A stretch of 64,000 nt of DNA from an uncultured Paraprevotella sp. (GTDB lineage Bacteria > Bacteroidota > Bacteroidia > Bacteroidales > Bacteroidaceae). Location: contig CAMWUI010000010.1 in the NCBI GenBank assembly GCA_947177395.1, positions 1 to 64,000 on the forward strand, read 5' to 3'. This document shows, piece by piece, positions 34,791 through 52,419 of the stretch (positions within the stretch are counted from its first letter, which is position 1; every line of letters begins with the position of its first letter). Both the position numbers and the translations under genes were made by a program. The notes below the pieces were generated by a model. It searched no databases and was not told the DNA's origin. It saw only the letters and a list, made by a program, of their open reading frames with translations.

Positions 34791-34798
34791 TATATTTG
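34791..34798 (+). promoter_or_regulatory. -7 promoter box of the structured leader RNA
   Basis: TATATTTG matches TAnnTTTG and is followed by GCAGCAC, a common Bacteroides start context. Transcription from here would give a leader of about 370 nt to the XRE gene. Confidence 0.55.
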
Positions 34799-34804
34799 CA
34801 GCAC

Positions 34805-35110
34805 TAAATGTTGTCTGCCCGAAGGGGCCGGCAAGAGAGACATAATGCGGCATTAGCTTTCGCTTTTGGTTCTTGAAAATCGCCATTAAAAGACCACCAA
34901 AGAAGTAAAGTCTATTGCTCACGCTAAATGCGTGGGCTTTACTTTATGTATAATGGTGGTCAGGTGTTTGGCGATACCTCAAGGACTTATGTATAAAGGT
35001 GGCTCACGCTCTTTTTATGTCTCGAAGGTAAGAACAAGATGATGCCGCTTCCAGCTCCGCTCAGTCCTTGAAAATCGCCAATTTCTGTGAATGACCGGTT
35101 CGGGTGAGTG
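34805..35110 (+). ncRNA. Candidate structured leader RNA with two competing helices
   Basis: Segment M (34969-34987, TGGCGATACCTCAAGGACT) is complementary to both copy A (34868-34885, GGTTCTTGAAAATCGCCA) and copy B (35063-35080, AGTCCTTGAAAATCGCCA). The two differences between A and B both keep pairing as G-U wobbles. The A:M form encloses GACCACCA/TGGTGGTC, then AGTAAAG/CTTTACT, then CTCACGC/GCGTGGG with a TAAAT loop. GCTCACGC and TTATGTATAAnGGTGG also occur twice. I do not recognise the family. It precedes a small XRE gene. Confidence 0.6.
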
Positions 35111-35174
35111 ATAGTCCTGCTTCATCTATGTATACGTTATGCTGCAACCGGGACGTTGCGGCAGGAGGATGTGT

Positions 35175-35405
35175 ATGAAAACCATCGGAGAATTGATTCA
35201 CCATCGGCTCAAGGAGCGGAAACAGACCGTGAAAGAGTTTGCCGAAGCCATTGGCTACCAGCGCAGCAATGCCTATCGTATCTTCAATCAGACAACTATC
35301 GATACGGGATTGTTGATGCGTATTTCCCTGTTCTTGGAATATGATTTCTTTGCCGACTATTCGGCCGAATATCAACATACGGCCGCCGGCGCGTATCTTT
35401 CCTGA
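35175..35405 (+). CDS. Small XRE-type helix-turn-helix regulator
   Basis: This 76-residue protein (KTIGELIHHRLKERKQTVKEF...) has a single HTH: KEFAEAIGYQRSNAYRIFNQ fits helices 2-3. The start is the ATG at 35175 with a clear AGGAGG at 35163-35168, unusual in this window; an ATG six bases earlier is also possible. The open frame extends upstream to 35139. It sits between the structured RNA leader and the half-site array at 35391-35428, and could bind that array and control the operon downstream (inference). Confidence 0.8.
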   Translation: MKTIGELIHHRLKERKQTVKEFAEAIGYQRSNAYRIFNQTTIDTGLLMRISLFLEYDFFADYSAEYQHTAAGAYLS

Positions 35406-35510: not shown

Positions 35511-36107
35511 ATGAAAAGAATGTTTATTATGGTGGTTATTACCGTCCCAATGTTAATGATGACTTCTTGCAAAACAACTAAAAGTGTAGTAAATGTACCC
35601 GGAGATCAACGCTCCAGAAGTCCGTTTGGCGATGTTTATGAAGTACCTGCAGCCGAAAATGATACCGAAGAATATTTTGGTGCCACAGGTATCGCTTCCG
35701 GCCCCAAAACACAAATGGGAAGTTTACAATTGATAGCCTTAACCAATGCACAAAATATGATTCGCCAAAAGATGCAGCATGCATATAAAGGGATGGTAGA
35801 TGATTATATGAATGCTATAGGCAATAATGCCGGAACTGATATTCAAAATGAAGTAGAACGCGGGGGACGCCAAATTATAGACGCCATAGTCAAAGAGACA
35901 CAAGCATCAAAAGGGCCTGTTTTTTCTGCCGTTGACGAAAAAGGTAATGTTACCTGCTTTTTAGGTATCCGAATTTCAAAGAAAGCAACAGCAGACAAGA
36001 TTGCCGATAACGTTTCCGAAGATGAAGAATTAAAGATAAAATTTAAAGCAGAACTATTCCGTCAAAAAATGAAAGATGCTTTTAAAGAATACAAAGAAAA
36101 TAAGTAA
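35511..36107 (+). CDS. LPP20-like lipoprotein
   Basis: This 198-residue protein has a lipoprotein signal with the lipobox ending at Cys20 (MLMMTSC). The body has TGIASGPKTQMGSLQLIALTNAQNMIRQKM, the helix-rich pattern of LPP20/LpoB-adjacent outer-membrane lipoproteins, and a Lys/Glu-rich C-terminus. The function is unknown. It is the first gene of an AT-rich operon, followed after 2 bp by a second protein with an LPP20-type domain, so the two may work together at the outer membrane. Confidence 0.7.
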   Translation: MKRMFIMVVITVPMLMMTSCKTTKSVVNVPGDQRSRSPFGDVYEVPAAENDTEEYFGATGIASGPKTQMGSLQLIALTNAQNMIRQKMQHAYKGMVDDYMNAIGNNAGTDIQNEVERGGRQIIDAIVKETQASKGPVFSAVDEKGNVTCFLGIRISKKATADKIADNVSEDEELKIKFKAELFRQKMKDAFKEYKENK

Positions 36108-51095: not shown

Positions 51096-51638
51096 TCATT
51101 TATTCGTGGTATGTATTTTTACAATCTTAGCCGTTACCGTAGTCTGATACTCAACAGCATTTTTGCCTGCATTTGATACACGTGAAGTCACAATAGGTTC
51201 AAGTACACCATCAGCGCCATAGTCCTTTACGACCTCTATCAAACGTGCAATGGCAACTCTACGAGCAAATTCTTCTGCACTTGGAAGATCCTCTACATTG
51301 TATGATGCATCCTGAAGCAAATAACCGAAAGTGGCAGTACCACGAAAAGAAGTAAGAGTCCATCCATTTGAGCTGTCGAATTTAAACAGATAGGAGAAAT
51401 CACCGTTTCCACTGGTCAGTTTAAGTGATGCTTTGGAATACGTGGCTGTAACAGAAGCTGTTTCCGTAATTGTGTTGAGGATGTCATAGTCACCTTTCTG
51501 AAGATTCAATGCTCCTACGGAAATTGCATCGGCTGAACTCACGGCTCTTGGAATAATAAGATTCTTCTGTCCACCACATGACGTCATTAATGTAACTGCA
51601 GCGAGAATGGCGCTTGCCAAAATGATTTTTTTGTTCAT
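51096..51638 (-). CDS. Lipoprotein of unknown function, first gene of the PEGA operon
   Basis: This 180-residue protein has a lipobox at Cys21 (TLMTSC). The body has LQKGDYDILNTITETASVTATYS and later RVAIARLIEVVKDYGADGVLEPIVTSRV followed by a beta hairpin ending KIVKI. I do not recognise the family. It resembles small outer-membrane-anchored lipoproteins in which a conserved helix plus strand follows a beta-sheet half. It has a long leader containing a rod-shaped hairpin and a -7 box at 51893-51900. Confidence 0.7.
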   Translation of the reverse strand: MNKKIILASAILAAVTLMTSCGGQKNLIIPRAVSSADAISVGALNLQKGDYDILNTITETASVTATYSKASLKLTSGNGDFSYLFKFDSSNGWTLTSFRGTATFGYLLQDASYNVEDLPSAEEFARRVAIARLIEVVKDYGADGVLEPIVTSRVSNAGKNAVEYQTTVTAKIVKIHTTNK

Positions 51639-51686
51639 TATTTCATTTCTTGGTCTTACAGCCCCATCGACCAGCTAATTTATGTT

Positions 51687-51853
51687 AGAAGCGTGGACTG
51701 AATTGCCCGCTTCTATTGAGAAGGTCGTAGGAAACCTATGATGAAGATGAGGGAATAGCAGCCCACGCCATAGCGTGAGAACCGCTTCGTTATCCTCTCA
51801 TCATTGCGAAAATTTCCTACGTTTTCTCAATAAGAGATAAGCAAAACGCTTCT
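51687..51853 (-). ncRNA. Rod-shaped structured leader RNA of the PEGA operon
   Basis: Four stacked arms pair along 167 nt: AGAAGCGT (51687-51694) with ACGCTTCT (51846-51853), TATTGAGAA (51714-51722) with TTCTCAATA (51824-51832), CGTAGGAAA (51726-51734) with TTTCCTACG (51813-51821), and GATGAG with CTCATC near 51746 and 51798. A CACGC/GCGTG hairpin caps it. It lies between the promoter box and the first gene. The transcribed strand is assumed from that context. Confidence 0.65.
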
Positions 51854-51892: not shown

Positions 51893-51900
51893 CAAAGGTA
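51893..51900 (-). promoter_or_regulatory. -7 promoter box of the PEGA operon
   Basis: The minus strand reads TACCTTTG (TAnnTTTG). It would give a leader of about 250 nt to the start codon at 51638, containing the whole rod structure. Confidence 0.65.
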
Positions 51901-52099: not shown

Positions 52100-52419
52100 T
52101 TGACGAGACAATCGAATTTGAATTACCAACTACCAGAGCCAAATATCCCAACCGTTTGCGACGGATAGTCGTATGGAACGATGAACACGGCTTTGAGGTA
52201 GAACTGCTTACCAACAGTTTCAAACTTGCCGCATCAACCATTGCGGCTTTATACAAAGCACATTGGGAAATAGATGTGTTCTTTCGGATTCTCAAACAAC
52301 TGTTGCATATCAAGAGTTTCATAGCCACATCACGCAATGCTGTAGAAACTCAGATATGGACCGCCATGACTACTATCCTTATTTTGACATGGCTAAAACA
52401 TAAAGCCTCCTACAATTGA
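52100..52419 (+). pseudogene. C-terminal remnant of an IS4-family transposase
   Basis: The frame reads EFELPTTRAKYPNRLRRIVV and then LTNSFKLAASTIAALYKAHWEIDVFFRILKQLLHIKSFIATSRNAVETQIW. This is the YxxRWxIExFFxxxKQ..K region of IS4-type DDE transposases, carrying the last catalytic Glu. No start or N-terminal catalytic residues remain. The IS 3' end follows to about 52617. Confidence 0.85.

Follow-up and report, generated by a model that had tools for sequence, protein, structure and literature searches.

Layout of the locus and its genes

The window, the whole stretch of DNA analysed here, covers 64 kb of an uncultured Paraprevotella sp. (contig CAMWUI010000010.1, GCA_947177395.1, positions 1-64,000). 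A member of a structured RNA family occupies positions 34837-35023 on the forward strand, and the RNA described here ends at approximately 35023. A preliminary description of the locus had proposed a leader RNA in which two near-identical strands, A and B, compete for one complement, M, ahead of a small XRE gene. The pieces from which that proposal was built (A, M, B, the duplicated strands, helix C1, the TTATGTATAAnGGTGG pair and the -7 box) were all found where they had been placed. We divided the RNA into four segments, a to d (1 to 4), which take part in two folds: a long rod containing b:c and A:M, and a two-hairpin state containing a:b and c:d. The features are as follows.

34791-34798, + strand: -7 box of the Bacteroidota type, TATATTTG (TAnnTTTG), from sequence
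34814-34836, + strand: 5' leader hairpin, from sequence and fold; elsewhere an AUG-stop micro-ORF occupies this place
34837-34845, + strand: 5' strand of the outer closing stem P0, GAGACATAA, pairing with 35015-35023 in the fold
34847-34874, + strand: segment a (1), whose partner in the two-hairpin state is 34890-34924; shares bases with the beginning of A
34868-34885, + strand: strand A, partner of M in the rod, from fold and compensatory changes
34892-34899, + strand: strand p, GACCACCA, rod partner of p' (34954-34961)
34905-34924, + strand: segment b (2), putative 5' arm of the antiterminator; includes C1, GCTCACGC, at 34917-34924
34930-34952, + strand: segment c (3), complementary to b and d; C1', GCGTGGGC, plus an extension
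34954-34961, + strand: strand p', TGGTGGTC, rod partner of p
34962-34987, + strand: strand M and its flanks AGGT...ACCT (34962-34979), which may form a mini-hairpin with a loop complementary to A
34988-35009, + strand: segment d (4), putative 3' arm of the terminator; includes C2, GGCTCACGC, at 35001-35009
35010-35017, + strand: T-tract TCTTTTTA, directly 3' of d, from sequence
35015-35023, + strand: 3' strand of P0, TTATGTCTC, pairing with 34837-34845 in the fold
35064-35080, + strand: copy B, a local A-like repeat outside the conserved core and no feature of the family
35175-35405, + strand: small XRE/HTH_26 protein gene, the first behind the leader; ATG at 35175, in-frame ATG at 35139
35511-36107, + strand: following gene, with a lipoprotein-like N-terminus, MKRMFIMVVITVPMLMMTSC, judged by eye

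The first bases of segment a make helix P1 in the family model. The XRE gene is real, its product matching Pfam HTH_26 at 27.8 bits (cut-off 22), and the product of the following gene matched no Pfam family at E <=0.01. Hairpins at the 5' leader position of other copies were read by eye.

A second copy of the RNA lies in the window on the reverse strand, also between a -7 box and a gene.

51893-51900, - strand: -7 box of the second copy, TACCTTTG, from sequence
51683-51852, - strand: second RNA core, 62.7 bits with covariance model R1 and 100.3 bits with model R2
51096-51638, - strand: lipoprotein-like gene (MNKKIILASAILAAVTLMTSCGG), starting 44 nt past the second copy

The c arm of the second copy is at 51753-51768 and its C2 lies within 51683-51704; its T-tract is poor. 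The product of the lipoprotein-like gene matched no Pfam family. By eye, the second copy has an 8-bp closing stem (AGAAGCGT/ACGCTTCT), and an ORF resembling a transposase remnant lies nearby at 52156-52419 (+).

Size and distribution of the family

With blastn, relatives were found in 8/61 genomes, the window's own genome counted. The window and 10 other loci were placed in a sequence-only alignment of 11 sequences (A1), after which covariance model R1 was made; a second model, R2, was made from 104 rows. R1 matched 58/148 genomes of the window's order (Bacteroidales), with at least 18 matches in one 700-contig genome (18 candidates were scored per genome). Seven genomes picked for deeper search had 4-17 matches each, two of these counts including a reverse-strand hit at the same place. 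R2 matched 17/18 genomes of the genus Paraprevotella, including all 11 that are >=90% complete and <=5% contaminated, and gave six matches in the window's own genome. In the phylum sample, 19/148 genomes were matched, the own genome again counted. The family is far larger than had been implied, and its carriers are gut and environmental Bacteroidota. A strong copy at L157 5373-5535 (126.9 bits) lies on a contig labelled as a Paenibacillus MAG, likely a case of mislabelling or mis-binning.

We kept 196 distinct copies, with cores of 152-208 nt; 190 of them could be divided into segments a-d. One search gave 120 stretches, of which 80 were used. Reverse-strand model hits, the weak forward hit L070 2950-3119 (34 bits), duplicates (e.g., L023 = L012, L140 = L016, L136 = L018 and L128 = L056), repeat retrievals of the L074 and L072 places and the incomplete hits L147 and L180 were left out before counting. 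A further 20 loci were treated separately from the 196 copies. The copies are mutually related, which inflates the p-values given below.

Promoter box and downstream genes

The box TAnnTTTG occurred within 120 nt upstream in 126/193 copies, compared with 11/184 in an equal-length stretch further upstream and approximately 13 in shuffles. Between the RNA and the ATG, a shorter stretch, it occurred in 8/177 copies.

The longest downstream ORF was called exported, by a crude rule with a background of 45% (172/385), in 147/177 usable copies and not in the other 30. Usable copies had enough downstream DNA and an ORF start at <=250 nt; 8 copies had no ORF and 11 had too little DNA. Among ORFs of >=150 aa, 124/140 downstream ORFs were called exported versus 172/385 for the remaining ORFs at these loci (Fisher p 4e-21); an earlier background of 269/572 included the other 40 of the 120 stretches, and the repeat without them gave the 172/385. 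The distance from core to ATG of the 147 exported ORFs had a median of 54 nt, with 96/147 at 40-70 nt. In 4/20 of the further loci, no ORF of 60 aa started at <=250 nt. Among 93 downstream proteins, a chosen subset of 168, 17 matched BspA-type leucine-rich repeats, 14 matched a PARCEL-repeat surface-protein model and 3 carried a dockerin domain.

Relatives of the small XRE gene were found in the same position at L025 and L106 by pattern search, and L072 probably carries another, judged by eye. A leader specific to XRE genes was rejected: such a gene was seen at these three loci and in the window, and 147/177 copies precede ORFs called exported. By eye, two copies outside the order (L264 and L268) precede ORFs resembling ECF sigma factors, and copies such as L031, L063 and L070 have a small hairpin with a GGGACTG-like loop 20-50 nt past the T-tract, before the start codon.

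Fold of the rod and compensatory changes

The segment 34830-35030 had a minimum free energy (MFE) of -76.0 kcal/mol (z -6.8), equalled by 0/200 shuffles; for 34800-35180, z was -4.7 and 0/100 shuffles equalled it. Helix C1 pairs 34917-34924 with 34930-34937. The preliminary description had also named the helix AGTAAAG/CTTTACT; its two strands do complement each other, but in the MFE fold the register is an overlapping one, 34905-34911 paired with 34941-34947. When RNAalifold was run on an initial MAFFT alignment, it recovered only part of the rod; the rod structure was therefore drawn up manually from folds of single sequences.

Compensatory changes in homologues had been proposed as the check on a selected A:M structure, and they are present. 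On A1, 90.9% of rod cells were paired, 19 pairs had changed on both sides versus 11.9 in shuffles, 58 cells were double-changed versus 19.7, and 0/500 shuffles were as high by any measure. Among 103 distinct rows, in an alignment fitted to the structure, double changes were found at 44/45 rod pairs, the A:M helix included, and the rod covariation score was 0.658 versus 0.191 for shuffled and <=0.088 for slid alignments. The six P1 pairs were 94% paired in the fitted alignment. A U-G pair in C1:C1' was kept in 11/11 sequences of A1 and in 85/100 of the fitted alignment.

Around M, the bases GGY...RCC are near-constant while the sequence between them varies. The two G-C pairs of these flanks were present in 98/102 and 96/99 rows with letters, the inner pair was U-A in 70/91 and C-G in 9/91, and the four flank pairs together were 89.5% paired. 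These bases belong to internal loops of the rod and, when two hairpins form instead, might close a mini-hairpin exposing M. On the side of A, where the flanks consist of A's and U's, a mini-hairpin paired in 67% of cells is weakly supported. Covariation support for the mini-hairpins is modest: both together scored 0.118 versus 0.089 in shuffles (0/500 as high), hardly above slid alignments (0.116 and 0.113), and their double-changed pairs were as in shuffles (422/500 as high). As candidates for a ligand pocket, the conserved flanks GAAA/UUU and GGY/RCC are present, and alternative stems can account for them.

Exact A-like repeats downstream of the core measured 14 nt in the window (35064-35080), 12 nt in L026 and 10 nt in L056, where the repeat adjoins the start codon.

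Mutually exclusive helices

A second pairing, absent from the preliminary description like P0 and the second window copy, joins 34930-34952 with 34988-35009, right before the T-tract. Forcing the pairing before the T-tract gave a second fold with a:b and c:d in place of b:c. In the window, c:d consists of 34930-34938/35001-35009 and 34942-34952/34988-34998 (-27.0 kcal/mol); the duplex energies of a:b and b:c are -20.9 and -19.4 kcal/mol, respectively.

To assess coevolution in the 190 divisible copies, we set the duplex energies of strands taken from one copy against those of strands swapped between unlike copies. The native combination was better in 182/190 for b:c (-21.1 vs -17.1 kcal/mol), in 168/190 for c:d (-20.2 vs -16.6 kcal/mol) and in 168/190 for a:b (-18.5 vs -14.8 kcal/mol). 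The control combinations a:c (95/190) and b:d (77/190) showed no coevolution, and neither did a:d, for which native strands were slightly worse than swapped ones (better in 76/190). The c:d extension outside the conserved GCGTGGGC/CCACGC was better in 142/190, compared with 71/190 for the control of C1 with C2. The p-values of this test reach ~1e-31, which, given the kinship of the copies, should be taken as strong and not literally. That is, b and d compete for c, and a and c compete for b; b:c, aided by the A:M helix, excludes both a:b and c:d. The duplication of GCTCACGC and TTATGTATAAnGGTGG around M (the latter at 34944-34959/34987-35002) fits with b and d both being complementary to c. 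The proposal of a cis-acting switch leader, two of whose strands compete for one complement, stood in kind, but the strands had been mis-assigned: they are b and d, and the complement is c.

In MFE folds of growing prefixes, a:b was present in 180/190 copies once b had been added in full; with the prefix ending right before d, b:c was present in 185/190 and a:b in 0/190. In the full core, b:c was present in 181/190, c:d in 4/190 and a:b in 4/190, and the best fold with c:d averaged 11 kcal/mol worse than the MFE, loop-loop pairing being uncounted. At equilibrium, therefore, the leader would allow read-through, and b would have to be held back for c:d to form; the rarity and cost of c:d indicate that termination would need kinetics or a factor. 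A terminator scan did not call c:d, whose loop is longer than the scan allows, but picked out the C1 hairpin.

In 165/190 copies, six or more of the 8 nt following CCACG were T, against a background of 3%; this frequency is partly selected since the T-tract belongs to the search model. A poor T-tract (<=4 T of 8) was found in 7/190, including the second window copy.

Upstream of the core, the motif GC[CT][ACT]ATG, picked after inspecting the copies, occurred within 90 nt in 83/196, and in 81/83 an in-frame stop followed 0-2 codons after the ATG. Counted within three codons, stops numbered 81 in frame versus 8 and 20 in the two alternative frames (1000 shuffles, mean 26, maximum 41). The motif was missing in 113/196 copies, including both window copies, which have a hairpin there. 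In L017, L018 and L020, among others, the micro-ORF precedes the core by ~40 nt. Some copies, a few of them lacking the ATG, have a CTAT...ATAG palindrome at this place, judged by eye. As a guess, the race between a:b and b:c might shift when a ribosome is retained close to the 5' end.

Comparison with known RNAs

Searches against Rfam 15, judged by E-value thresholds, gave nothing convincing over the rod in the window and 54 other loci; the other matches there were tRNAs, scores far below gathering, and DUF805b (RF02914). The last lay just 3' of the rod in 7/55 sources (none in the other 48), above the gathering score in L061 and L068 and below it in L074, L125, L104, L042 and L124. It stands between rod and gene at L061 1703-1738, L068 1717-1752 and L074 1727-1762. 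DUF805b is listed in Rfam as cis-regulatory, a role that the leader family would share; unlike the rod, it is a separate 3' module of 35 nt that leaves the rod uncovered, and it may be a 3' module of some such leaders.

Flavo-1 (RF01705) and 6S-Flavo (RF01685) appear in passages of PMC2864571 as Bacteroidetes RNAs, which the leader family also is; a passage of PMC9723704 reports many Flavo-1 hits with unclear function in Flavobacterium psychrophilum. Flavo-1 had no match at E <=1 in 19 loci outside the order and one own-genome locus, nor in the other Rfam scans of family loci. The 6S-Flavo model matched neither the window genome (G000) nor any control genome, and had no match in the scanned family loci, including the 19 outside the order. 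FopS/GibS, in the account of PMC11697453, are multicopy sRNAs of Bacteroides thetaiotaomicron of ~65-70 nt with a single-stranded 5' seed and one terminator hairpin. The leader family shares with them several copies per genome and a Bacteroidota promoter. Identity with FopS was rejected: the leader has a core of 152-208 nt, folds as a rod and precedes genes, compared with the 65-70 nt, seed and terminator given for FopS in that account. We found no earlier description of this RNA in the journal papers covered, which were mainly open-access ones.

Transcription attenuators of the trp type form pairings 1:2, 2:3 and 3:4, of which 2:3 excludes 1:2 and 3:4. The leader resembles them in having four ordered segments, 3:4 before a U-tract, a position between promoter and gene and, in part of the copies (81/196), an upstream small ORF. 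Unlike the trp type, its micro-ORF has 0-2 codons after the AUG and cannot count an amino acid, and its 1:2 and 3:4 loops are mutually complementary (A:M and p:p'). The genes behind it mainly encode exported proteins, whereas trp-type attenuators precede biosynthesis operons.

Discussion

From the comparisons, it is nearly certain that this leader is structured and that both of its folds are supported. It has mutually exclusive helices, a U-tract after the putative terminator arm and a position between promoter and gene, this 5'-UTR position being judged by motif and ORF position. We consider it probable that the family is a cis-acting 5' leader, mainly of exported-protein genes of Bacteroidota, working by transcription attenuation. 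This explanation builds on what was computed here, namely that the family exists and is placed between promoter box and gene, that the rod shows compensatory changes, that a:b, b:c and c:d coevolve, and that a T-tract follows d. We infer that c:d plus the U-tract would terminate transcription and that b:c would antiterminate. In the cell, a:b would fold first during synthesis of the leader; as c emerges, it could capture b from a, and the variable helices A:M and p:p' would zip the halves into one long rod. With the rod formed, d would be left without its partner c, and RNA polymerase would read on into the gene. Should b:c be absent or be undone in time, c:d would form before the U-tract and transcription would stop ahead of the gene. 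The factor setting this balance may be a ribosome on the micro-ORF, a protein or a ligand. Several results speak against attenuation. The pairing a:d, which is expected to close the rod, showed no coevolution (76/190), although the six P1 pairs are 94% paired in the fitted alignment; c:d is rare in MFE folds, costly, and not called by the terminator scan; the T-tract is poor in 7/190 copies. Further, 30/177 downstream ORFs were not called exported, and an ORF was lacking in 8 copies and in 4/20 of the further loci.

As a tentative extension, one that we hold to be possible but doubtful, the leaders would be phylum-wide, self-recognising RNA switches, in which two tandem hairpins meet as the A and M loops kiss and then zip into the rod before the terminator can form. 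The loops would differ between paralogues, so that cross-talk could be avoided; ribosomes on the start-stop micro-ORF or the 5' hairpin would tune the race; and the whole would form a common RNA layer over surface proteins. A and M may be kissing loops.

The RNA could instead be a free-standing sRNA, in which the rod is functional, the U-tract simply serves as its 3' terminator and the following gene is there by coincidence or reached by read-through; we regard this as unlikely. It would suit the T-tract of 165/190 copies, the lack of c:d in the MFE of 186/190 and the copies outside the order that have no ORF in reach. However, the sole promoter motif tried precedes the gene in just 8/177 copies, the distance to the ATG varies little (median 54 nt; 96/147 at 40-70 nt), the genes are biased to exported proteins, and a rod would not require a:b and c:d to coevolve.

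Rather less likely is a riboswitch, whose conserved nucleotides would bind a small molecule and control a regulon of surface genes. Cyclic-di-GMP riboswitches have a regulon of surface genes, and the many matches per genome ahead of exported proteins and the two alternative folds are consistent with such a role. Yet 44/45 rod pairs, A:M included, change on both sides somewhere, the unpaired conserved flanks can be explained, with modest support, as stems of mini-hairpins in the other state, and no Rfam riboswitch matched in the loci scanned.

We find it very improbable that the sequence acts as DNA, in the form of a palindrome or mobile element (cruciform, MITE) that has inserted ahead of genes. 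It is an imperfect palindrome in multiple copies with weak reverse-strand model hits, but a promoter box stands before it and a gene behind it on the same strand, the U-G pair in C1:C1' is kept (11/11 and 85/100) and the changes are compensatory. A phage or plasmid element was rejected, as blastn with the window's 384 bases gave no match in phages or plasmids and one exact pattern had no match in viral contigs.

We give next to no credence to competition between A and B for M in control of the XRE gene: A (34868-34885) and B share 16/17 bases, both fit M (34969-34987), and L026 and L056 have A-like matches of 12 and 10 nt, but downstream A-like repeats of >=10 nt occur in 3.9% of 180 copies versus 2.3% of swapped controls, and B lies outside the conserved core.

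If transcription attenuation by this leader is correct, many genes for surface, adhesin-like and secreted proteins are preceded by one leader RNA that is absent from Rfam 15 and has as many as 17-18 matches in a single genome; the phylum is a dominant one of the gut, and its control at the RNA level is little charted. It would provide a ready list of possibly co-regulated genes together with a testable two-state mechanism, and it would place a conserved start-stop micro-ORF in bacterial leaders.
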